Shown: one piece after another, positions 6,667 to 56,250 of the stretch
Numbering within the stretch: the first letter of the stretch is position 1
How the letters are laid out: every line of letters starts with the position of its first letter
From: Bacteroidetes bacterium HGW-Bacteroidetes-8
GTDB lineage: Bacteria; Bacteroidota; Bacteroidia; Bacteroidales; UBA932
Reading direction: 5' to 3'
DNA length: 64,000 nt
Assembly (NCBI GenBank): GCA_002840895.1
Contig: PHCZ01000003.1
Span: forward strand, 62,001 to 126,000
Translations under genes and position numbers: made by a program
The notes under the pieces: model-generated
Seen by the model: only the letters and a program-made list of their open reading frames with translations
Databases searched by the model: none
What the model was told of the DNA's origin: nothing

Positions 6667-7707
6667 TTATAACCTACTCTCAAAAGGGAAGTAGATCTTG
6701 GCCATCATTTCACTATGTTCATCTTCGCAATTACTGTTTACTGTTATCCCGCCTCCGCTTCTGTACCACATCTTTCCATCTTTGTCTCTCTCAATGAATC
6801 TTATCATCACTGCCGAGTCAAAAACCGACCCGTCAAAAAAACCAAAAACTCCGGTATAGAATCCCCTTTTCTCCCCCTCACTTTTGGCAATAAGTTTAAG
6901 GGTAGACTTTTTGGGCGCTCCCGATACCGAGCCTGCAGGTAGTAGCCTAAAAATAAGGTCTCCCAAATTATCTAAATAGCTCCCGGGCAGCTCCCCTCTA
7001 ATATCGGAGCTTACCTGCAGAATTTCACCCCTATCGGTCTTGACACTGTCTATGTAGCGGAAACTCTCTACCCAAACCCTCTCCGAGACCATACCCAGGT
7101 CATTTCTTATAAGATCTGTTATGGTATTATGCTCGCTACTCTCTTTATAATCTGAGAGAATCCTCTCCCTGGCCTGTGGTACGGATGCCATAATGGTACC
7201 CTTCATTGGCCTGGAAGATATAACCCCATTTTCTATCTGCACAAATCTCTCCGGGCTGAAACATACGAACCTGCCCGGCAGACAGATTGCAAACGGGGAT
7301 TCAGATTCAGAGAAGATCTCCTCTAAGGTTAGTGATGTCTCTACCTCTGTTTTGCAGGTTAGGTTAATCAGATATGTATCTCCACGCATAAGCCCCTCAA
7401 GAACAGTGCTGAACTTCTCTCTGTACTCCTGTATGGGTACAGGATTTAAAATTTTCAGCCTTTTTTCCCTCTTTTCGGGTAGTTGCCCAACTCTTATAGC
7501 AGATCTATTGCATATATCTCCTATTCTGAATAGTATCTCGCTGCTGTTAATCGGGTCTTCGATAAATATTCCACTCTCCAGCTCAAAATCTACCGCAAAA
7601 AGAAACGGACCTCTCTTTGATGCGGTACGGTTTATATGTTCGCAAACCTCGGCCGCAGAAATAATCGCTACCTGGGAATTTTTTGCAAGGTTTGTGTTAC
7701 CAGCCAT
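6667..7707 (-). CDS. pabB: Aminodeoxychorismate synthase component I
   Basis: This chorismate-binding enzyme converts chorismate plus ammonia to 4-amino-4-deoxychorismate. The 346 residues cover the catalytic domain of the TrpE/PabB family, with motifs SSRPMKGTI, TDLIRNDLG, GSVSGAPKKSTL and GGGITVNS. The lysine in the PMKGT motif is diagnostic for PabB; anthranilate synthases have alanine there. The N-terminal non-catalytic domain is reduced. It sits with the pabC-like gene downstream and diverges from pabA, which starts 80 bases away on the other strand, so all three pABA genes are adjacent. Confidence 0.93.
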   Translation of the reverse strand: MAGNTNLAKNSQVAIISAAEVCEHINRTASKRGPFLFAVDFELESGIFIEDPINSSEILFRIGDICNRSAIRVGQLPEKREKRLKILNPVPIQEYREKFSTVLEGLMRGDTYLINLTCKTEVETSLTLEEIFSESESPFAICLPGRFVCFSPERFVQIENGVISSRPMKGTIMASVPQARERILSDYKESSEHNTITDLIRNDLGMVSERVWVESFRYIDSVKTDRGEILQVSSDIRGELPGSYLDNLGDLIFRLLPAGSVSGAPKKSTLKLIAKSEGEKRGFYTGVFGFFDGSVFDSAVMIRFIERDKDGKMWYRSGGGITVNSNCEDEHSEMMAKIYFPFESRL

Positions 7708-46081: not shown

Positions 46082-46678
46082 TTAGTTTCTTGAGTATAGC
46101 TCCTCCTCAATATCGGAGAGAGAGAGTCCAAAAAACTCAAGGAGAACAATAAGATGGTATATGAGATCTGCACTCTCATATACCAATCTTTTTTTATCCC
46201 CTTTTATAGCCTCAATTATGGTCTCCGCAGCCTCCTCTCCAACTTTTTTGCAGATTCTCTCTGCTCCGGAGTTAAAGAGTGAGGTTGTGTAAGAGTCCGG
46301 TGGCATATTGAGGTGCCTCTCTCTTATTATTTGAGCAAGCCTCCCTGTAAAACCTTCACTATCTCTGCCTGCGAAACAGCTTACGCTCCCGGTGTGGCAT
46401 ACTGGGCCTGCAGGATTTACCCTCACTAAAAGTGTATCCTGGTCACAATCTTTTTCAATGGTCACAATTTTGAGAAAGTTTCCGCTGCTCTCCCCTTTTG
46501 TCCAGAGTTTCTTGCGGGATCTGCTGAAAAAGGTGACCAGCCCACTGGCTATACTTAACTCATATGACTCTCTGTTCATATAACCCAGCATAAGAACTTT
46601 AAGGGTTTTATCATCCTGGATTACTGCCGGAATAAGATCCGTTTCATTTTTAAATACTATATCTCTTAATTTTTCCAT
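46082..46678 (-). CDS. hisIE: Phosphoribosyl-AMP cyclohydrolase / phosphoribosyl-ATP pyrophosphatase
   Basis: The 198-residue bifunctional protein catalyses steps 2 and 3 of histidine synthesis. The N-terminal HisI domain (about 1-105) shows MLGYMNRESYE, SRSRKKLWTKGE and zinc-binding CDQDTLLV with HTGSVSCF. The C-terminal HisE domain (about 108-198) shows SYTTSLFNSG, KKVGEEAAE and ESADLIYHL. It is the last gene of the his operon, 15 bases after hisF, and ends close to the convergent fhs stop. Confidence 0.97.
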   Translation of the reverse strand: MEKLRDIVFKNETDLIPAVIQDDKTLKVLMLGYMNRESYELSIASGLVTFFSRSRKKLWTKGESSGNFLKIVTIEKDCDQDTLLVRVNPAGPVCHTGSVSCFAGRDSEGFTGRLAQIIRERHLNMPPDSYTTSLFNSGAERICKKVGEEAAETIIEAIKGDKKRLVYESADLIYHLIVLLEFFGLSLSDIEEELYSRN

Positions 46679-46693
46679 AATCTCTTTTTTTAA

Positions 46694-47449
46694 CTATAAT
46701 CTCACTACAACTCCTGACTCCAGCAGAAATCTTTTCAATGCAGGTATCCCAATCTCTCCGTTGTGAAAGACAGACGCAGCAAGAGCGGCATCTGCTCTTC
46801 CCTCTTTGAAGAGTTGGGCAAAGTGCTCCATCTTACCTGCTCCACCGGATGCAATGACAGGAATGGTTAGCCTGGAACCCAGAGTTGACAGAGCTTGGTA
46901 TGCAAACCCGCTTTTTGTCCCATCGTGATCCATTGAGGTGAAGAGAATCTCGCCTGCTCCCCGGCTCATAACCTCATCTGCCCACTCAAATAGCTCCCTG
47001 TTGCTCCTCTTTTGACCTCCGCTGCTCATAACTCTCCATATACCCTCCTCTACTCTTGCATCGATTGCAACAACTACAAACTGAGATCCGTACCTGCAGG
47101 CAATTGAGTCGACCAGTGCAGGGTTAGAGATTGCAGCACTATTGATTGAGATCTTGTCTGCTCCCGCATCCAGAAGAGCACTCACCTGGCTGAGTTCTGT
47201 AATGCCACCACCAACCGTAAATGGAATATTAATCTCTTTGGCAACTCTCTTTACAAGTGAGAGAAATGTCCGGCGACCCTCCTGAGTTGCGCTTATATCC
47301 AGATAAACAAGCTCATCTGCCCCCTGCTGAGCATATCCTCTTCCCATAAGAACAGGATCTCCCACCTCTTTTAGGTTTATAAAATTTACCCCTTTCACAG
47401 TCTTGCCCTCGTGAACATCCAGGCAAGGTATTATCCGTTTTGCAACCAT
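46694..47449 (-). CDS. hisF: Imidazole glycerol phosphate synthase, cyclase subunit
   Basis: This 251-residue TIM barrel joins PRFAR with ammonia from HisH to form IGP and AICAR. The N-terminal RIIPCLDV holds catalytic D11, and the second catalytic aspartate is in SMDHDGTKSG near residue 130. The VGGGI and ASGGAG phosphate loops are present. Its start overlaps the hisA end by 19 bases. Length and motifs are intact. Confidence 0.98.
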   Translation of the reverse strand: MVAKRIIPCLDVHEGKTVKGVNFINLKEVGDPVLMGRGYAQQGADELVYLDISATQEGRRTFLSLVKRVAKEINIPFTVGGGITELSQVSALLDAGADKISINSAAISNPALVDSIACRYGSQFVVVAIDARVEEGIWRVMSSGGQKRSNRELFEWADEVMSRGAGEILFTSMDHDGTKSGFAYQALSTLGSRLTIPVIASGGAGKMEHFAQLFKEGRADAALAASVFHNGEIGIPALKRFLLESGVVVRL

Positions 47450-48189
47450 AGTGATAACTCCTTTAAATCAACTCTATTTTCATATAGTGCTTTCCCAACT
47501 ATAACGCCATCTGCACCGCACTCTTTTAGTTTAACAATATCTTGTAGCGAGGAGACACCTCCGCTGGCAATAAGCTCAATTCCGGGAAACTCTCTTTTTA
47601 GGGAGGAGTAGATATCAAATGCCGGTCCACACAACATACCGTCTTTAGAGATATCTGTACAAATCAATTGACTCACTCCAATTTTTGCATAGTTGGATAT
47701 AATCTCAAAGAGATCTGAATCACTCTCCTTCTTCCACCCTTTTATCGCAATTTTACCATCTCTAATATCTACCCCAAGAATCAACCTTTCGCTACCGAAG
47801 ATCTTTAACATCTCCTTAAAGAGAGAGGGGTTCTCTACCGCAATACTCCCACAAATTACTCTTGAGGCTCCGGCGCTAAACACCTCGGTGGCAGACTCCA
47901 AACTCTTGACTCCGCCTCCGAACTGAATCTCCATTGTGCAGCCTTTAGAAACCCTCTCCAAAACATTTAGGTTTACCGGACTCTCTCCCCTGGCTCCCTC
48001 CAGATCTACCAAATGAAGTCTTTCAAAACCAAACCTTTGAAAATTCATAGCCACCTCTATGGGGTCTGTACTATAGACAATTTTTTTGCTATAGTCTCCC
48101 ATTGAGAGCCTTACACACTCTCCTGCAATTATATCAATTGCAGGGATAACAGAAAATTTGGGTTTACTCGCTATATCCATCTCTATCAT
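47431..48189 (-). CDS. hisA: ProFAR isomerase
   Basis: The 252-residue TIM barrel isomerises ProFAR to PRFAR. VIPAIDIIAGECVRL carries the first catalytic aspartate and CTDISKDGM the second; FGGGVKS and IASGGVSS bind phosphate. The ATG at 48189 overlaps hisH by 26 bases; an ATG at 48180 would also serve. It is in the expected place between hisH and hisF. Confidence 0.97.
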   Translation of the reverse strand: MIEMDIASKPKFSVIPAIDIIAGECVRLSMGDYSKKIVYSTDPIEVAMNFQRFGFERLHLVDLEGARGESPVNLNVLERVSKGCTMEIQFGGGVKSLESATEVFSAGASRVICGSIAVENPSLFKEMLKIFGSERLILGVDIRDGKIAIKGWKKESDSDLFEIISNYAKIGVSQLICTDISKDGMLCGPAFDIYSSLKREFPGIELIASGGVSSLQDIVKLKECGADGVIVGKALYENRVDLKELSLWLQNG

Positions 48190-48769
48190 CTATATTAAAA
48201 AAGTTCTTTAGAAATCGCTCTCCTGCCTGCCCGCTCTTCTCCGGGTGAAATTGTACTCCATAGAAATTTCTTCTATTGAGTGCAGATGAAAATTTGCCCC
48301 CATAATCGGTCGTGGCAACCGTGTCCAGGCTGATTTCCGGAGCGTAGGAGTGAACAAAATAGAACCACTCCCCCTCGGGTATAGATTCGAAAAGAGGGCC
48401 CCTGAGTCCGGTTATACGGTTCCACCCCATATGCGGAATCTTAAGACCCGGCGATCTTAGTTTTACAACCCTGTTATCCAAAACATCCAATAACCCGGTA
48501 TCACCCTCTTCGCTATAAGAGCATAAAACCTGCATCCCTATACAAATGCCCAATACCGGAGAGCTTAGTGACCGGATAAGATTTGTCAAATTGCGCTCCT
48601 CTATCCCGCAAATAACAGATGCCGCCTGCCCAACTCCCGGAAGAACTATATGCGATGCAGTGGATATAAGTGAGGGGTCTGATGTAACAACATAATCTTC
48701 TCCTATCCTCTCAATTGCATTGGTCAATGAGCGGATATTTCCCGCTCCGTACTCTACTATTGCAACCAT
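48164..48769 (-). CDS. hisH: Imidazole glycerol phosphate synthase, glutaminase subunit
   Basis: The 201-residue class I glutamine amidotransferase has C76 in GICIGMQVL and H175/E177 in VQFHPEKSG. The N-terminal VAIVEYGAGNIRSL is the standard HisH start. It delivers ammonia to HisF, encoded two genes downstream. It begins 5 bases after the hisCB stop. Confidence 0.97.
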   Translation of the reverse strand: MVAIVEYGAGNIRSLTNAIERIGEDYVVTSDPSLISTASHIVLPGVGQAASVICGIEERNLTNLIRSLSSPVLGICIGMQVLCSYSEEGDTGLLDVLDNRVVKLRSPGLKIPHMGWNRITGLRGPLFESIPEGEWFYFVHSYAPEISLDTVATTDYGGKFSSALNRRNFYGVQFHPEKSGQAGERFLKNFFNIDDRDGYSE

Positions 48770-48774
48770 AATCT

Positions 48775-50487
48775 TTATATTACCCCCTTACTGCTTGGTG
48801 TTTGATAGAGATTAACATCATTTGAGAGTGCTACTCTTAGCGCTCTTGCGAATGCTTTAAAAATTGCCTCTCCCTTATGGTGGTCGTTATCTCCCTGTGC
48901 AGATATATGAAGTGTAACGAGAGCCGAGGAAGATAGGGTAGAGAAGAAGTGTCTGAACATCTCACACGGAAACTCACCAACTCTCTCTCCCTTAAAGGAT
49001 ACATCCCATATAAAAGAGGCCCTTCCTCCCAAATCCAGCAGTACCTCTGCCCTGGACTCATCCATAGGTAACACAAAACCATATCTGTTGTACCCCTTTT
49101 TTGCAGATATCATCCTCTTAAATGCCTCTCCCAAAACTATTGCGACATCTTCAACGGTGTGGTGCGGGTCTACTTTTAGATCTCCGCAGGCATCAATATC
49201 CATAGAGATGCCTGAGTGAACCGATATCTGTTCCAACATATGGTCAAAAAACCCTACTCCTGTACGGATCTCCGAATCCCTTCCTCCATCCGGGTAGATC
49301 CTGACTTGTATCTTTGTCTCCTTTGTTACTCTTGAGAGCTCAATGCAGTCGCTAAATTTTTTAGCGGAGTCTCCATTAATCACAGAGAGAAGAGCTCTGT
49401 TTTCCAGCGGTTTCCCAACAGTGATACGGAGAGTTTGTGAGCAACCGGCCACATCGCTTCTATCTCTTGTTACAATACCGGCGTTTAACAATTTGTTATA
49501 AATCTTTTTTGCATCGGTGAATTTTACCAGCAAGAAGTTGGAGTTACTCGGATATACCCTCTCAACTCCTGTAGATCTCCCCAGAGAGGCTGCAAGCATA
49601 TCCCTCTCTGCAATAATCGTCTCCACAATAGTAGGGTCGCTCTCTTTAAGAGCCCTTATCGCAAGCTCTTGATTTACACGACTTATATTATATGGGTATT
49701 TAACCCTCTCCATAAATGCGATGATTTTTGGTGAGGATAGAGCAAAACCAACCCTAATAGCAGCCATCCCTTTCGCTTTGGACATTGTTCGCAAGACCAC
49801 AAGATTGGGATATTGGTCAATCATTGGAACAAACCCGGCATCAGATGCAAAATCTATATAGGCCTCATCCACTACAACCACTCCGCCAAACCTCTCAATC
49901 ACCCAGATAACATCCTCTTTTTTGAGTAGGTTCCCGGTTGGGTTATTTGGTGAACACAAAAATATTATCTTGCTATTTTTGTCACTTAACTTCAATAGCC
50001 TCTCTCTGTCAAAAGAGAAGTCGGTTTCAAGAGAGAGCTCTCTGTAGGATATGTCATTTATAGATGCACAAACCTTATACATTCCGTAGGTTGGAGAGAG
50101 AGTAATGATATTATCTCTTCCGGGTATACAAAAAATTCGTATCAACAGATCTATTGCCTCATCCGATCCGTTTCCTGCAAAGATATTCTCCGGTTTTGGC
50201 ATAAAGTGTTCGGGGTTTACACCACTATCAATAAATATCTGCACCTGTTTGCAGATAGATACAGCAGCAGCTCTCTTTAGCTCTTTACTGTGAGGATCCG
50301 GATATCTGTTATAACCGGAATTGTATGGGCTCTCATTTGCATCGAGATATACAGCGCATTTAAGATCTGATTCATCTCTTGCGGTAGAGTAGGGTTTGAG
50401 CTCTTTTATATTTGGGCGGATAATATTATCCAACCAGATTATCTCTTTTAGCTCGTTACTCTTTTTGATCTTTGTTGTCTCTTTCAT
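48775..50487 (-). CDS. hisCB: Fused histidinol-phosphate aminotransferase / imidazoleglycerol-phosphate dehydratase
   Basis: A single uninterrupted 570-residue frame joins two enzymes. Residues of about 15-372 are HisC: NESPYN, GNGSDEAIDLL, SPNNPTGN, VVDEAYIDF and PLP lysine K237 in TMSKAKG. Residues of about 386-570 are the IGPD (HisB) domain: GFFDHML (412-418), HHTVEDVA (442-449), DESRAEV (476-482) and HHKGEA (536-541) with the manganese-binding histidines. The histidinol-phosphate phosphatase half found in enterobacterial HisB is absent. Steps 6 and 7 of the pathway are thus on one chain. The gene sits between hisD and hisH. Confidence 0.95.
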   Translation of the reverse strand: MKETTKIKKSNELKEIIWLDNIIRPNIKELKPYSTARDESDLKCAVYLDANESPYNSGYNRYPDPHSKELKRAAAVSICKQVQIFIDSGVNPEHFMPKPENIFAGNGSDEAIDLLIRIFCIPGRDNIITLSPTYGMYKVCASINDISYRELSLETDFSFDRERLLKLSDKNSKIIFLCSPNNPTGNLLKKEDVIWVIERFGGVVVVDEAYIDFASDAGFVPMIDQYPNLVVLRTMSKAKGMAAIRVGFALSSPKIIAFMERVKYPYNISRVNQELAIRALKESDPTIVETIIAERDMLAASLGRSTGVERVYPSNSNFLLVKFTDAKKIYNKLLNAGIVTRDRSDVAGCSQTLRITVGKPLENRALLSVINGDSAKKFSDCIELSRVTKETKIQVRIYPDGGRDSEIRTGVGFFDHMLEQISVHSGISMDIDACGDLKVDPHHTVEDVAIVLGEAFKRMISAKKGYNRYGFVLPMDESRAEVLLDLGGRASFIWDVSFKGERVGEFPCEMFRHFFSTLSSSALVTLHISAQGDNDHHKGEAIFKAFARALRVALSNDVNLYQTPSSKGVI

Positions 50488-50490
50488 ATT

Positions 50491-51780
50491 TTAATTTCCG
50501 GAATTTATTCTCTTTAATCTTATCTCTACAGCATTTCTATGCCCCTGGAGCTGCTCGTTTTGCGCCATAGTGGCAATGTGTGGGCCGAGGTTGAGCAGCC
50601 CCTGCGGGGTGAGCTCCTGGTAGGTTATTTTATGTGTAAAGCTCTCAAGTGAAAGCCCCCCAGAAGATCTTGCCCATCCACCTGTAGGGAGAGTGTGGTT
50701 AGTCCCGCTAGCGTAATCTCCCGCACTTTCGGGAGAGTACTCTCCTATGAATATACTCCCGGCGGCTCTGATTTTATCTGCAATTTCCCACGGCATCTGT
50801 GTTGCAATTATAAGGTGTTCGGGTGCATAGAGGTTCGCAAACTCTATTGAGTTTGATATCTCTTTAAAAATTATGACTCTGCTATTCATTAGTGAGCCCT
50901 CTATCTCTCGTTTACGATCAAGCAATACCCTCTGCTCCTGGACAGACTTCATAACCTTATCTGCAACAGATTTTTCCGGAACCAAAAGTATAACCTGAGA
51001 GTCCAATCCGTGCTCAGCCTGAGATAGCAGATCTGCCGCAATAAAACCTGCATCACAGCTACTGTCTGCAATAACCATCAGTTCCGACGGACCGGCAACC
51101 ATATCTATCGCCACTGTTTTTGATACCATCTGCTTAGCTATTGTTACATATTGATTTCCGGGTCCAAAGATTTTATCTACCCTCTTTATGCTCTCTGTTC
51201 CGTAAGCCATTGCAGCAACTGCCTGAGCACCCCCTACCGTAACAATGGTATCAATACCTATCCGGGATGCAGTGTAGGCCAACACGGGTGGTATCTTTCC
51301 GTCATATGAGGGTGGAGTAAAGAGAACTATCTCCCTGCAACCTGCTATTTTAGCCGGTATTCCCAACATAAGCACTGTGGAGAAGAGTGGTGCGCTCCCA
51401 CCCGGGATATATAGACCCACCCTCTCTATTGGCAGAGATCTCTGAATACATCTCACTCCGGGGGTGGTTATAATGTCAATATCTACACTAACCTGCGCAC
51501 GGTGAAATCTTTCGATATTCTCTGCCGCTATATCTATTGCGTTTTTAAGTTCTTGCTCTATAAGGTTTTTACTATTGTCAATAAACTCTCTGTCCAGATA
51601 GAGTGACTTAAGAAAGACTCCATCTATTTTTTGGGTAAGTTCATAAAGAGCTATGTCGCCACTAGTACGCACCTCCGATAATATCCCGGATACTCTCTTC
51701 TCTATTGATTCCGTAAGCTCGGTAGATCTGCCTGCAAGTTGTGCCCATTGACCTCTTTGGGGCTCTTCAATAATCTTCAT
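50491..51780 (-). CDS. hisD: Histidinol dehydrogenase
   Basis: The 429-residue NAD- and zinc-dependent enzyme oxidises histidinol to histidine in two steps. Visible are IPGGSAPLFSTVLM, GGAQAVAAMAYGT, GPGNQYV, MVAGPSE, DLLSQAEHG (zinc histidine), YAPEHLI with the catalytic Glu-His, and SAGDYASGTNHTLPTGGWAR. All catalytic regions look intact. It starts 30 bases after hisG and ends 3 bases before hisCB. Confidence 0.98.
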   Translation of the reverse strand: MKIIEEPQRGQWAQLAGRSTELTESIEKRVSGILSEVRTSGDIALYELTQKIDGVFLKSLYLDREFIDNSKNLIEQELKNAIDIAAENIERFHRAQVSVDIDIITTPGVRCIQRSLPIERVGLYIPGGSAPLFSTVLMLGIPAKIAGCREIVLFTPPSYDGKIPPVLAYTASRIGIDTIVTVGGAQAVAAMAYGTESIKRVDKIFGPGNQYVTIAKQMVSKTVAIDMVAGPSELMVIADSSCDAGFIAADLLSQAEHGLDSQVILLVPEKSVADKVMKSVQEQRVLLDRKREIEGSLMNSRVIIFKEISNSIEFANLYAPEHLIIATQMPWEIADKIRAAGSIFIGEYSPESAGDYASGTNHTLPTGGWARSSGGLSLESFTHKITYQELTPQGLLNLGPHIATMAQNEQLQGHRNAVEIRLKRINSGN

Positions 51781-51810: not shown

Positions 51811-52662
51811 CTATGGTAAAATCTTCTCCAGCGAGAGTACCAGAATACCCTCTGCACCAATTGCTTTTAGCTGCTCCATTTTTGGCCAAAGCTCCCTCTC
51901 CTCTACCACAACGTGTATTGAGCACCACCCTTTTTGTGCCAGAGGAAGAATGGTGGGGCTCCTCATTCCGGGCAATATCCCGGTTGCCTCATCCAGTTTA
52001 TCTTCCGGGAGGTTCATCAGAAGATACTTCATCCCTCTGCTTCTCTCAACAGATTCAAATCTTGAGACCAGCTGGGTTACAACCTCCATCTTCTCCCTCT
52101 CCAGCTTTGGATTTGCAATTAAAACCGCTTCGGAGACAAAGACCCTCTCAACCTCTTTAAGCCCGTTGGTTATGAGGGTTCCTCCCGAACTTACAATATC
52201 AAAAATTGCATCTGCCATCCCAACTGAGGGTGCAACCTCTACAGATCCTGTAATTTTATGAATCTGCGCATCTATACAGTTCTCTTTGAAGAATTTTTCA
52301 AGAATTGAGGGGTAGGATGTCGCAACCCTCTTGCCGTTAAAATAGTCAAGTCCCGTGTATTCCGCAGCTTTTGGAATTGCGAGTGAGATGCGACACTTGC
52401 TAAAGCCCAGCTTATGAATGACAGTGTTATCCATCTTTTTCTCCTCAACCTCGTTCATTCCCACAATTCCAATATCTGCAACCCCCATTGCAACTGCTCC
52501 CGGAATATCGTCATCCCTGAGAAAGAGAACCTCAAGGGGGAAATCTCCGCACTTGGCAAGCAGCTTTCTTTTGCCCTCCTCAATTGTGAGCCCGGACTCG
52601 TGCAGAAGGTTAATACTCTCTTCGCTTAATCGGCCTTTGGCCTGAATAGCAATCCTAATCAT
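51811..52662 (-). CDS. hisG: ATP phosphoribosyltransferase, long form
   Basis: HisG commits PRPP and ATP to histidine synthesis. At 283 residues it is the long form with a C-terminal ACT-like domain (about 210-283) that mediates feedback inhibition by histidine, so no HisZ partner is needed. Motifs are IAIQAKGRL, GVADIGIVGMNEVEE, and the PRPP loop DIVSSGGTLITNGL. It is the first structural gene of the operon and lies 20 bases after the attenuator terminator, so its expression should depend on antitermination. Confidence 0.96.
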   Translation of the reverse strand: MIRIAIQAKGRLSEESINLLHESGLTIEEGKRKLLAKCGDFPLEVLFLRDDDIPGAVAMGVADIGIVGMNEVEEKKMDNTVIHKLGFSKCRISLAIPKAAEYTGLDYFNGKRVATSYPSILEKFFKENCIDAQIHKITGSVEVAPSVGMADAIFDIVSSGGTLITNGLKEVERVFVSEAVLIANPKLEREKMEVVTQLVSRFESVERSRGMKYLLMNLPEDKLDEATGILPGMRSPTILPLAQKGWCSIHVVVEERELWPKMEQLKAIGAEGILVLSLEKILP

Positions 52663-52682
52663 AAATCAATAAATTAAAAAAT

Positions 52683-52714
52683 AAAAAAAAGGGCCTACCT
52701 TGCGGTAAGCCCTT
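52683..52714 (-). terminator. his attenuator terminator
   Basis: On the minus strand AAGGGCTTACC (52714-52704) pairs with GGTAGGCCCTT (52699-52689) over 11 bases with one G-U pair, around a GCAA tetraloop. A run of Us ends at 52683. It lies between the leader peptide and hisG, so it is a leader terminator and not the end of an upstream gene. Confidence 0.88.
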
Positions 52715-52737
52715 CTAAACTAAATATATCTGAATAA

Positions 52738-52827
52738 TTATCTCATATATACAAATAGCCGATCCAGCCTACCGTGTAACTGCAGGTGATGATGATGGAT
52801 CGAATGGATATTTGAATATAGATTCAT
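52738..52827 (-). CDS. hisL: his operon leader peptide
   Basis: This 29-residue open frame lies between a promoter-like box and the attenuator terminator. Residues 8-18 read HSIHHHHLQLH: six histidines in the peptide, four of them consecutive (codons 11-14). There is no other apparent function. In known his attenuators, scarcity of charged tRNA-His stalls the ribosome at such a run and lets the antiterminator form. The stop codon is 23 bases before the terminator stem. An AGAGAG purine stretch 4-9 bases upstream could act as a ribosome-binding site. Confidence 0.85.
   Translation of the reverse strand: MNLYSNIHSIHHHHLQLHGRLDRLFVYMR
52760..52802 (-). promoter_or_regulatory. his antiterminator and leader pairing segments
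   Basis: On the minus strand CGGTAGGC (52774-52767), covering leader codons 18-21, can pair over 8 bases with GCTTACCG (52710-52703). The latter is the 5' arm and loop edge of the terminator, so the two structures are mutually exclusive. Upstream, CGATCC (52802-52797) can pair with GGATCG (52765-52760), enclosing the four consecutive histidine codons. GGTAGGC occurs both here and in the terminator 3' arm, as expected of competing strands. Confidence 0.75.
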
Positions 52828-52848
52828 TTTCTCTCTTTTGTTGAGTCG

Positions 52849-52856
52849 CAAATGTA
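52849..52856 (-). promoter_or_regulatory. Putative -7 box of his operon
   Basis: The minus strand reads TACATTTG, an exact TAnnTTTG, 21 bases before the leader ATG. A TTG at 52880-52882 could be the -33 element but with a long 23-base spacer. Confidence 0.45.
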
Positions 52857-52898
52857 AATCAAATTTTTTCTGATTACAGCAATTATTTTAAAAATTTT

Positions 52899-53669
52899 TT
52901 AATAAACGTGTATACTACCTTGTGCAGCAGGCAGATAATTTACTCCTATCCAGGTTATCATAAGCAAGATAAATGCTACCGGAAGCAACCAAAGAATATA
53001 TTTGAGCGGATATCCCCTCAATCTGGAGTGAATATAGATGAGGTATGCTGTTGCTGTTATGAATGCCCAAACCTCCTTCGGATCCCAACTCCAGTAGTCT
53101 CCCCACGCCTCTTTAGCCCAGATCGCCCCCATTAGCATTCCCATCATAAGGAATCCAAATCCTATGTAAACGAGGTTATCTATAAGAGGCATCAACCTCT
53201 GGTTGGAACGCAACTCTTTCAATGCAACAAACGAGGCGATTGTGGCAGCCCCCAGCATTGCATATGATAGAATATATACCGTTACGTGCGGAACAAACCA
53301 GACACTCCTAAGGGCCGGCATTAGATTGGTTGTATGAATTTCCGGCTTTAGCAGGTTAACAAAAATAAAAACTGCAGAGACCAGGGTGCTATAACCCATT
53401 AGCCATTTGTACCCCCAGTGGAGGTATGTGGCAAATCCCACAATTATTATAAAAAAAGAGTACCAGAGACGTGTCTCTCCAATTGTCCGTAAAGGGGGGT
53501 GCCCCTGTGCTATCCATAAACCTGCAATGAAAACAGAGAAGAGGAGAACACCTGCCAAGATTAAGGTCTTTCCTGCTGTTGTACTCTTTGCCCTATAGAG
53601 AGATACTACTCCGGCACTCCAAAGAGTCAGGGAGCCAAAGGCGAAATATATGAAGTGACTCCAACTCAT
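52899..53669 (-). CDS. ccsA: Cytochrome c biogenesis protein CcsA (System II)
   Basis: The 256-residue membrane protein has about eight hydrophobic spans and the WWD heme-handling motif WGDYWSWDPKEVWAF near residue 185-200, typical of CcsA/ResC. It presents heme for attachment to apocytochromes c outside the membrane. I start it at 53669, where the ATG overlaps the ccsB stop (ATGA); a slightly longer start at 53687 would add six residues. It is the last gene of the nrfH-nrfA-ccsB-ccsA unit. Confidence 0.93.
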   Translation of the reverse strand: MSWSHFIYFAFGSLTLWSAGVVSLYRAKSTTAGKTLILAGVLLFSVFIAGLWIAQGHPPLRTIGETRLWYSFFIIIVGFATYLHWGYKWLMGYSTLVSAVFIFVNLLKPEIHTTNLMPALRSVWFVPHVTVYILSYAMLGAATIASFVALKELRSNQRLMPLIDNLVYIGFGFLMMGMLMGAIWAKEAWGDYWSWDPKEVWAFITATAYLIYIHSRLRGYPLKYILWLLPVAFILLMITWIGVNYLPAAQGSIHVY

Positions 53670-54799
53670 CTGGCACCTCCTTTCCAAAAGAGGGTAATAG
53701 CTCCGGCAATCATCATAATAATCCCGATTAAAGCAGGGATAAACCAGGGATCATAGACCAATTCAAAACGGGACCACTGAGAATCTCTTCCCTTTTGCGT
53801 GTCGTATGAGTGCTGGTAAATTTTCCAGCTCCCTACTGTGAGCGGGGAGTTTACCATAACAATCCCACCCCTCTCTTTACCACTGCGCGTATATACAATA
53901 ACATCGGAACTATATGCTTTAGGCTCGGGAAAAGTCATAGCAACGCAAAAATTTTCATTTATATCCAGTGTTTTATGCCTCTGAAAGTGGTTCCCGCAGC
54001 TAACCCATCCTCGCAGAGTATCGTTGGTGCCTTGAGATGTTACCAATACATACGCAGTGGGGGCGTAGCGGGGCAGATATTTTAAAGAGTCTACCTTGAT
54101 ACTCCACCCCTCTATTTGGGCAAAATTGTTCAACTCTGCAGGAAAAAGCAGAGGTCTCCCTTTAGGAAGTGCCTCTCCCGTTGCTCTCTCGATTATTGCC
54201 AGCTTGGGAGGGTACTCTTCGATTTCAAAATTTTTTAAACTAATAGCAATAGGCAGCTCTTTAAGAGCATCACGGGCGCCAAATCCCGATTGATCTGCTC
54301 TCCACTCAACCTCCCCCTCATTCACTCTCATAAAATATCTCGACTTATCTGCAGATCCTAAACCTGCAGCATAAAGAAGTATTAAAACTCCAAAATGATT
54401 TAATAGAAATGGGATACTCTTTTTTGAGAAGCTCTTAAGATGTACAGAGATTACAGCAGTTATATTTATGAGGGTCATTAGGTAGATTAGAATAAAAGGC
54501 CAGGAGAGCTTTACCCTATTCCCCGGAACAAGACCCATATAGAGAGTGCTAAATAATATAAGTGTCAAGAGTATAACCGACAGAGAGCCGGATGAGAGCC
54601 GGGAGAGGAACTTACCCCTTTTAATAAAAAAGAGAGTACCAAAAGCAGCCAGCGCTATTATATTAACGGGAAAAGCCAGAAAGGCCTTGTCAAAAGAGCC
54701 TAATGTGAATTGGAGGGCAAAACCGGCAGAAACAACTGCTGCTGTTACAACAGCCTCCTCTATAGCAATCGTCCGTTTTCTCTTGCCTTCACCAACCAT
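53666..54799 (-). CDS. ccsB: Cytochrome c biogenesis protein CcsB (ResB-like)
   Basis: The 377-residue membrane protein has three to four N-terminal spans (about 15-145), a large extracytoplasmic domain (about 150-345), and a final span near 350-372. This is the ResB topology. Typical segments are GVLILLYAAGLG, LPIAISLKNFEIEEYPP and YQHSYDTQKGRDSQWSRFELVYDPW (split by turns). It is the partner of CcsA in System II. Its 5' end overlaps the nrfA coding region by 40 bases. Confidence 0.9.
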   Translation of the reverse strand: MVGEGKRKRTIAIEEAVVTAAVVSAGFALQFTLGSFDKAFLAFPVNIIALAAFGTLFFIKRGKFLSRLSSGSLSVILLTLILFSTLYMGLVPGNRVKLSWPFILIYLMTLINITAVISVHLKSFSKKSIPFLLNHFGVLILLYAAGLGSADKSRYFMRVNEGEVEWRADQSGFGARDALKELPIAISLKNFEIEEYPPKLAIIERATGEALPKGRPLLFPAELNNFAQIEGWSIKVDSLKYLPRYAPTAYVLVTSQGTNDTLRGWVSCGNHFQRHKTLDINENFCVAMTFPEPKAYSSDVIVYTRSGKERGGIVMVNSPLTVGSWKIYQHSYDTQKGRDSQWSRFELVYDPWFIPALIGIIMMIAGAITLFWKGGAR

Positions 54800-56250
54800 T
54801 GTGGTACTGTTGTTGTCATAAATTCATCCTTTTCTCTGCGAAGTTTAGCCATATCAAGCCCAATGTACTGTTGTGCTCTCTCCTTTGTGGAGATATCGGG
54901 AGTAGGTATCTCATCCTTAATACCCAACGAAGCAAGAACTTTAATTGTCTCCAGTTGTGCCTGATAGCTCTTGTCGAGACTATGGGCAAGAATTCTCTGG
55001 GTCTCTACAGGTGCGTGAAATGCGGCTCCGTGTGAGGCAACTGCAAAGTCCCACCGCCATTGTGCTGCCCTTATAAGCATAAGAACCGGCTCCATCTGTT
55101 TTTGAGAGGCTCCATTATCCCAGGCAAACTTTGCGGCAATATGAGATTTTACAAGCTCCTTCTCAACCCGGTCTCTGGTTTCAAGTATTTTGTCCTGATA
55201 CTCGTAAACGTACTTTAAAAGATTCTCTTTGCTGTCTCGGTGGCAGGTCTGGCAGGTTCGGTCTATGTTTAGCAAAGGCGACGTTACGTGGTGATCGCTG
55301 TATTTGATTGCACCGTCCGACTTGTATGGCATATGACAATCTGCACACGATAACCCTCGTTGGGCGTGAGGCCCTGCCATAAATATCTCGTAGTCCGGAT
55401 GCTGAGCCTTTAACATTGGGGCTTTGCTTAGGGTGTGAACCCAGTCTGAAAAGCCAATCTCATCGTAATAGCTCTCTATCTGCTCTACACTCATCCCTTT
55501 ATCCCAAGGGAATGTGAGGTATTTGCCGTCCCCTTTAAAGTGGTACTCTACGTGGCACTGTGCGCAGGCTAATGAGCGTCTCTCCTGAATGGTGGTCACC
55601 CCTATATCTTTCCCGACTCTCTCAAAAGCCTCTGCAAGAGCAGGTCGAGAGATGGCGATATTCATATTCTCAGGGTTATGGCAATCTGCACAGCCGATAG
55701 AGTTGACAACCTCACTTCCAAAGTGAGACCATTTTGATGAGTAAAACTTCTCAATTCCCACCTCCGCCATCAACCTTGGCACATCCGGGCTTTTGCAGGC
55801 CCAGCAGGTTGAGGGTTGTAGATTTTTATCCTCTGTAACGGGAGCTCCTGTTCTCAGAGTCTTAACCACATCCTCTACTGCATATGAGTGACCTCTCGGG
55901 GCGCTATAGTCACGGGAGAAGGCATATCCTGCCCAGAGTACGACCATATCCGGCCTCTGCTCCAAGAGGTCAACCACTCCGTTACCGTTATGTTTGCTCT
56001 CGAAATCCATCTCCTTAGTCTTTTTCCAGGTCTCATACTCTCTGGGGTAGTTCTCTCCCCAAATCTCACTTCTGGACTCTATACCTTTTATCTCCACTCT
56101 TTTATTATTAAAAAGAGTCGCAATCTCTGCTCTTCGTTCAGTTACAGAGGCGGCCAAAAGGCCGAGCAAAAAAACAACCACAATTGTTCCTGCAAACAGG
56201 GTCCACATTAGAGCAACCCTGTGTTTTTCGAAGAATAGTTTAAGTTTCAT
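54760..56250 (-). CDS. nrfA: Ammonia-forming cytochrome c nitrite reductase, catalytic subunit
   Basis: NrfA reduces nitrite to ammonium with six electrons in the periplasm. The 496-residue protein has an N-terminal signal anchor (about 13-35) and five hemes: the catalytic CWACK site at 149-153 with its lysine ligand, then CADCH (187), CAQCH (229), CADCH (302) and CQTCH (333). The KAQHPDYEIF and MPYKSDGAIKYSDHHV segments are conserved around the active site and calcium. It follows nrfH by 11 bases. All hallmarks are intact. Confidence 0.98.
   Translation of the reverse strand: MKLKLFFEKHRVALMWTLFAGTIVVVFLLGLLAASVTERRAEIATLFNNKRVEIKGIESRSEIWGENYPREYETWKKTKEMDFESKHNGNGVVDLLEQRPDMVVLWAGYAFSRDYSAPRGHSYAVEDVVKTLRTGAPVTEDKNLQPSTCWACKSPDVPRLMAEVGIEKFYSSKWSHFGSEVVNSIGCADCHNPENMNIAISRPALAEAFERVGKDIGVTTIQERRSLACAQCHVEYHFKGDGKYLTFPWDKGMSVEQIESYYDEIGFSDWVHTLSKAPMLKAQHPDYEIFMAGPHAQRGLSCADCHMPYKSDGAIKYSDHHVTSPLLNIDRTCQTCHRDSKENLLKYVYEYQDKILETRDRVEKELVKSHIAAKFAWDNGASQKQMEPVLMLIRAAQWRWDFAVASHGAAFHAPVETQRILAHSLDKSYQAQLETIKVLASLGIKDEIPTPDISTKERAQQYIGLDMAKLRREKDEFMTTTVPQWLVKARENGRLL

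Follow-up and report, generated by a model that had tools for sequence, protein, structure and literature searches.

The leader and the his operon of the window

In the window, i.e. the whole stretch of 64,000 nucleotides analysed here, a full his operon with gene order hisG-D-CB-H-A-F-IE is found on the minus strand, downstream of a short leader. The leader is located between hisG, which starts at 52662, and a ccsB-like gene, which lies on the same strand, ends at 52899 and matches its model below cut-off. hisC and hisB form a single fused ORF of 570 codons (window 48775-50487); for the second half of the fusion, corresponding to hisB, the best hisB models score below the curated cut-offs. 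Directly upstream of the leader, on the same strand (window 52899-56250), there are the ccsB-like cytochrome biogenesis gene, an ORF without NCBIfam match and a gene for an ammonia-forming nitrite reductase. The features of the locus are the following:

52882, minus strand: TTG, weak -33 candidate, 26 nt further upstream of the -7 box
52849..52856, minus strand: -7 box TACATTTG of the Bacteroidota type TAnnTTTG, putative leader promoter, beginning 29 nt before the ATG
52738..52827, minus strand: leader peptide ORF, 29 codons, MNLYSNIHSIHHHHLQLHGRLDRLFVYMR, with six His (codons 8, 11-14, 18)
52796..52802, minus strand: outer protector strand CGATCCA, pairing with TGGATCG in the predicted fold
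52786..52797, minus strand: putative control codons CAT CAT CAT CAC (codons 11-14)
52782..52786, minus strand: segment 1, inner protector strand CCTGC, pairing in the MFE fold with GTAGG (52772-52768, within the arm)
52767..52774, minus strand: segment 2, antiterminator arm CGGTAGGC, 8 bases
52760..52766, minus strand: outer protector strand TGGATCG (MFE fold)
52703..52716, minus strand: segment 3, terminator 5' strand and first loop base, AGAAGGGCTTACCG, whose partner is segment 2 or segment 4
52687..52699, minus strand: segment 4, terminator 3' strand GGTAGGCCCTTTT
52676..52690, minus strand: U tract TTTTTTTTATTTTTT, overlapping the end of segment 4
51811..52662, minus strand: hisG, long form with C-terminal domain, presumed first regulated gene (TIGR00070 and TIGR03455, both above cut-off)
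46082..51780, minus strand: remaining his operon, hisD, hisC-hisB fusion, hisH, hisA, hisF and hisIE (profile matches)

All the leader parts named in a first-pass annotation (-7 box, ORF, arm, terminator and U tract) are present in the sequence; its list lacked the CCTGC/GTAGG protector hairpin, which is predicted to hide the arm. The -7 box follows TAnnTTTG, which we take to be the Bacteroidota consensus. The terminator hairpin (52716-52687) has 13 pairs and a GCAA loop, and its U tract stops 13 nt short of hisG. In the MFE fold the leader forms this terminator and a second hairpin, where CCTGC/GTAGG is enclosed by CGATCCA/TGGATCG.

The leader RNA folds better than 200 of 200 shuffled sequences (z -3.93), and a terminator scan of 52600-52950 detects two sites against 0.0 expected, namely the hairpin of the hisG leader and a weak one inside the ORF. 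Four His codons together with a competition between pairings had been considered very unlikely to arise by chance: this stands for the combined, conserved parts, but not for the run itself, since the CAY x4 pattern (four His codons in a row) occurs six times on the two strands of the 2.9 Mb genome and the reversed control pattern four times. The run alone is thus rare without being over-represented and proves little; it is through the set of parts and their conservation that the leader exceeds chance. When the six CAY x4 sites were searched for terminators by a crude perfect-stem criterion, the known leader itself was missed, and this test was discarded.

Rfam gave no match at gathering score for the window and 15 loci of relatives. 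At a permissive threshold (hits up to E 5) 13 matches were obtained, all of them under the gathering score and hence rejected; the best ones were Ref55 (E 0.003), ctRNA_p42d (0.008) and BTnc231 (0.02), and most of them lie over the terminator hairpin. RF00514 (His_leader) has no gathering-score match and is absent also from these 13 hits.

Distribution and parts of the leader among relatives

The regions upstream of hisG were compared in 203 non-redundant loci, comprising 30 near loci, 75 named loci (according to their titles almost all from Bacteroidales), drawn from the best 80 of 590 relatives, and a phylum sample of 98. The phylum search gave a match in 325 of 392 genomes, from which the 30 best loci, one being the window itself, were used together with 69 more that were listed and picked for spread over genera and families; this sample represents the better-matching part, with HisG matches down to about 1e-98, and weaker ones, such as the large group f43, lie outside it. 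Before counting, duplicates (L031, L032, L035, L037 and L111), rows not derived from hisG searches (L141-L146) and one locus with the gene start off the contig (L054) were removed. A leader was defined as a complete ATG ORF of 6-60 codons, at most 350 nt from hisG, with at least three of one residue in five codons, a rule which superseded an earlier criterion based on runs of three His.

By this rule a His-rich ORF is found in 163 of the 203 regions; the next residue is Leu with 28, and each of 20 shuffled sets gives 0-6 for His. When four residues in five codons are required, His is counted 126 times, any other residue at most 7 times, and shuffles give 0-1 over the same regions. The strict rule finds no His-rich ORF in 40 of the 203 regions, 12 of which have a His-rich frame that is weaker or does not begin with ATG, although some of these are doubtful. 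In the genus of the window the ORF is present in 20 of 21 hisG loci, or in all 21 counting one GTG start, and named carriers include Bacteroides propionicigenes, B. gallinarum, Dysgonomonas and Carboxylicivirga. Among near and phylum loci the leader is found in 27 of 32 family groups, many of which have a single member; family labels were assigned by hand, and the family of the window was divided by genus into three groups. In all these counts the sequences are related, hence the counts are not independent.

In the 15 nt searched, a Shine-Dalgarno 5-mer occurs in 0 of 163 leaders and a 4-mer in 4; the start context is A-rich. The phylum is said to lack Shine-Dalgarno sequences (PMC6847099). 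In 124 of 163 leaders the 80 nt preceding the ATG contain a TAnnTTTG box, located most often 25-29 nt from the ATG, and TTG/TTTG peaks 22-24 nt further upstream of this box, the distance being 26 in the window.

Downstream of the ORF, the terminator scan finds a hairpin followed by a T tract in 149 of the 163 leaders. In 114 of these 149 an arm complementary to the terminator 5' strand is detected at p<=0.05 against shuffles, and in 49 at p<=0.01, while the other 35 loci with a terminator have no arm above chance. The arm sequence differs among lineages, being GGTAGGC in many Bacteroidales, CTCAAGCG in members of group f31 and GCGCCGG in members of f42, and each of these lineage-specific arms matches its own terminator. 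In 140 of 149 loci the distance from the first His codon to the start of the arm is 15-36 nt, against an expectation of 62.8 loci by shuffling, the range having been chosen after the spacing had been seen; assuming a footprint of 27 nt, the arm lies just outside the ribosome placed at the control codons. Its position relative to the stop codon distinguishes two arrangements: in other families the median end of the arm is 3 nt past the stop, whereas in near loci the ORF extends past the arm, by 27 nt in the median.

These data bear on an alternative explanation, i.e. that the hairpin merely terminates transcription of the upstream ccsB-like/nrf genes and that the small ORF is a chance frame. 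The ccsB-like gene does end at 52899 on the strand of the hairpin, and the scan of 52600-52950 shows no other good terminator between this gene and hisG, so that the hairpin may also stop read-through. However, the promoter box and the ORF separate the ccsB-like gene from the hairpin, and the combination of ORF, arm and hairpin is found again before hisG where the upstream sequence differs by eye (e.g. L019 and L024), which makes this explanation very improbable.

The scan finds no terminator in 14 of the 163 leaders, three of which (L044, L067 and L108) show a hairpin and a T run on inspection. By family, leaders without scanned terminator are 4 of 4 in f28, 4 of 8 in f35, 2 of 2 in f49 and 1 of 1 in f36. 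The His leaders lacking an intrinsic terminator by scan are L165-L168 in f28, L119, L120, L122 and L124 in f35, and L214 and L215 in f49; control in these families is possibly translational or Rho-dependent. Such families lend some weight to the proposal that the leader acts on hisG translation, by start-site masking or reinitiation, rather than on transcription; yet in the window a strong, covarying terminator is followed by a U tract ending 13 nt before hisG, and the proposal has a still smaller chance of being correct.

Covariation and the proposed switch

Covariation was analysed in alignment A3, which contains 19 of 22 near loci; L018, L020 and L022, in which A2 had placed the 3' strand of the terminator wrongly, were excluded. 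The four control codons are invariant in these 19 loci, apart from the third base of the last one. Paired cells amount to 97.4% in the antiterminator, where 7 are changed on both sides, and to 98.9% in the terminator, where 10 are; as the sequences are related, the same change may enter these numbers more than once. On three measures, namely the percentage paired, the changed cells and the covariation score, 0 of 500 shuffles reach values as high, for antiterminator and terminator alike, and controls with slid strands pair at most 50% and 66%, respectively. Two cruder measures are unremarkable for both structures: the number of pairs changed on both sides is equalled in 204 (antiterminator) and 41 (terminator) of 500 shuffles, and the number of pair types in 483 and 492. 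The upper helix of the antiterminator is 89.6% paired.

The antiterminator shares the 5' strand of the terminator, and the two structures covary through the shared columns. Columns 62 (arm), 133 (terminator 5' strand) and 144 (3' strand) shift jointly from U-A-U to C-G-C in 6 of 19 sequences. The inner protector helix has 98.9% of cells paired in the 19 sequences, with variation on one side only, while fixed-column covariation of the outer protector (72.4% of cells paired) and of the whole protector does not go beyond shuffles; the claim of a conserved protector is limited to the inner helix, and the outer one is not claimed. In relatives such as L005-L008 the predicted folds have instead CAAATA/TATTTG and CCATTC/GAATGG as outer protector. 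This helix also bears on the idea that no ribosome stalling is involved and that the terminator is controlled by the leader peptide or by a His-binding factor on the RNA: SNIHS and LFVYMR, the ends of the peptide, seem to be kept through much of the genus, but their codons coincide with the predicted CAAATA/TATTTG helix and the ends vary between families, where the His run and arm spacing are constant, and the idea is hardly credible.

The first-pass annotation had interpreted the locus as a His-codon attenuator and had proposed two comparative checks, both of which turned out favourable: His codons are kept upstream of hisG in 163 of 203 related regions (20 of 21 in the genus), and both stems covary in the 19 near loci. 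The interpretation is therefore supported at the level of sequence. From the parts, their conservation, covariation and spacing we infer ribosome stalling, its timing, termination and a response to histidine; that the leader is a ribosome-mediated transcription attenuator reading charged tRNA-His is assigned a probability of about 0.92. Most likely, the switch would turn the his genes on only when histidine is short.

In such an attenuator, transcription would start just past the -7 box and the leader peptide would be translated as RNA polymerase moves on. When charged tRNA-His is scarce, the ribosome would stall at His codons 11-14 and cover segment 1, leaving the arm (segment 2) free to pair with segment 3 while segment 4 has yet to be synthesised, and the polymerase would continue into hisG. 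With enough histidine, the ribosome would move past the arm, segments 3 and 4 would pair and transcription would end before hisG. Where other families have a clear arm, a ribosome that has reached the stop codon would occupy the arm itself. In the genus of the window, where the stop lies beyond the arm, the CCTGC/GTAGG hairpin would have to hide the arm behind the ribosome.

The switch was modelled by masking 27 nt for each codon position, on transcripts reaching the end of segment 3, and by scoring whether the arm holds segment 3. The model and a protector test were applied to the 114 of 149 loci having an arm at p<=0.05, 21 near and 93 others; in L015 and L017 the automatic arm starts too early, so that their protector values are not meaningful, although they are kept in the means. 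With the ribosome on the best His codon the modelled antiterminator value is 0.93 in near loci and 0.91 in the others; moving the ribosome to the stop gives 0.78 and 0.01, and omitting it 0.69 and 0.35, respectively. The predicted value at His exceeds that at the stop in all 114 loci, by more than 0.3 in 92 of the 93 others and in 4 of the 21 near ones; the locus of the window gives 0.86 at His against 0.55 at the stop.

Because in near loci the ORF ends past the arm, a ribosome at the stop does not cover it, and a refolded hairpin would have to hide it. In the model, the refolded protector holds the arm before segment 3 appears with a value of 0.62 in near loci, where the arm is thus hidden in part only, and of 0.06 in the others, and in the profile of the window the arm is covered while the ribosome passes over codons 17-26. 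In folds extending to 14 nt past the arm, this is hidden by upstream RNA with a value of 0.63 against 0.40 for shuffles in the 21 near loci, and of 0.61 against 0.49 in the 93 others; p<=0.1 is reached in only 10 of 21 and 22 of 93 loci. Protector hairpin and arm cover at codons 17-26 may together constitute the off-switch of near loci; as modelled this switch is weak, and it is the weakest step of the proposed mechanism.

At equilibrium, the full RNA is predicted to favour the terminator in both states (for L001, 0.92 and 0.93 with the ribosome at His and at the stop, respectively), so the switch must be kinetic, with the order of synthesis deciding the outcome. The order of synthesis decides in classical attenuators too.

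A wider reading, to which we give a little less than even odds, would be that Bacteroidota share an old set of His attenuators, which work without Shine-Dalgarno initiation and with the ribosome close behind RNA polymerase; that the genus of the window evolved a second off-switch, with an ORF running through and past the arm and a hairpin refolding behind the ribosome; and that f28 and parts of f35 and f49 may use the leader without an intrinsic terminator.

Known attenuators and leaders of other amino-acid genes

Leader-peptide attenuation requires a prompt ribosome start and a ribosome that closely follows RNA polymerase. The kind of control proposed here, ribosome-mediated transcription attenuation, is already known, and a 5' element of hisG has already been noted in Flavobacteriaceae; new are the breadth of its distribution, the lack of a Shine-Dalgarno 5-mer (0/163) and the variant geometry in the genus of the window. 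We take RF00514 to represent the His leader attenuator of enteric bacteria, with its A-F hairpin set. The leader of the window shares with the enteric one the run of His codons in a short ORF before hisG, the strand common to terminator and antiterminator and the proposed choice by a stalled ribosome; it differs in having one protector hairpin in place of the A-F set, no Shine-Dalgarno sequence, a Bacteroidota promoter and no Rfam match.

The earlier statement that attenuation by his leaders is established in Gammaproteobacteria holds, but would be too narrow if meant for that class only, since His leader attenuators are described in Firmicutes (PMC9413887, PMC2965389) and clues are given for Flavobacterium (PMC9723704). 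The leaders of some Firmicutes likewise have 3-5 His codons in a row and a terminator and an antiterminator before the his operon (PMC9413887); they belong to another phylum, and the comparison is one of description. Closer is the structured 5' element reported before hisG in Flavobacterium psychrophilum and other Flavobacteriaceae, i.e. the same gene and phylum as in the window, within a study that gives strong clues to leader-peptide attenuation before amino-acid operons of Flavobacterium and conserved elements without Rfam hit; its section on 5' cis-regulatory RNAs contains no count of His codons, pairing model or spread past the family (PMC9723704). For B. thetaiotaomicron, leaders containing small ORFs that look like those of leader peptides have been noted (PMC7366714), and in the passages considered of a his-gene study of the Bacteroidota superphylum attenuation appears once, for enteric bacteria (PMC8305728). 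Our literature search, in which subscription papers were mostly outside the scope and some hit lists were partial, found no description of such a His attenuator for Bacteroidales. A 2004 survey by Vitreschak and others reportedly mentions attenuators in Bacteroidetes/Chlorobi.

A His attenuator would provide a simple account of the control of many Bacteroidota his operons, and the leader would represent an RNA family that gave no Rfam match. Furthermore, a phylum that is said to lack Shine-Dalgarno sequences but keeps the attenuator geometry makes transcription-translation coupling on leader RNAs directly testable.

The trp leader of E. coli follows a simple 1:2, 2:3, 3:4 logic, and a ribosome at its stop codon covers part of segment 2. 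The leader of the window shares this logic, whereas in its genus the stop lies beyond segment 2. RF01692 (Bacteroid-trp) presumably holds a Trp-rich leader. It is listed as a candidate structured RNA for Bacteroidetes in PMC2864571 and, unlike the his leader of the window, is named for trp. In 15 genomes of the genus no trpE is found above cut-off, with weaker matches in 12; the sole trpE-family match in the genome of the window is at window 6694-7479 (110 bits against a cut-off of 517.7).

Two more candidate attenuators are suggested by sequence in the same genome: upstream of leuA (L241, G000:C8) there is a Leu-rich leader, MNRQISIIQSLLLLGFYKSGGATVVH, and upstream of pheA (L234, G000:C11) a Phe-rich leader, MSNSTTYIFFCFFFGPQKGLICY, each followed by a hairpin and a T tract. 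In the genus of the window, none of the 10 leuA and 9 pheA loci has a His-rich leader. The same ORF rule finds a Leu-rich leader in 9 of the 10 leuA loci, with Ile in 3 and Phe in 1, and a Phe-rich leader in 4 of the 9 pheA loci, with Leu in 2 and Ile in 1; thus leader attenuation seems to be in wider use in this genus.
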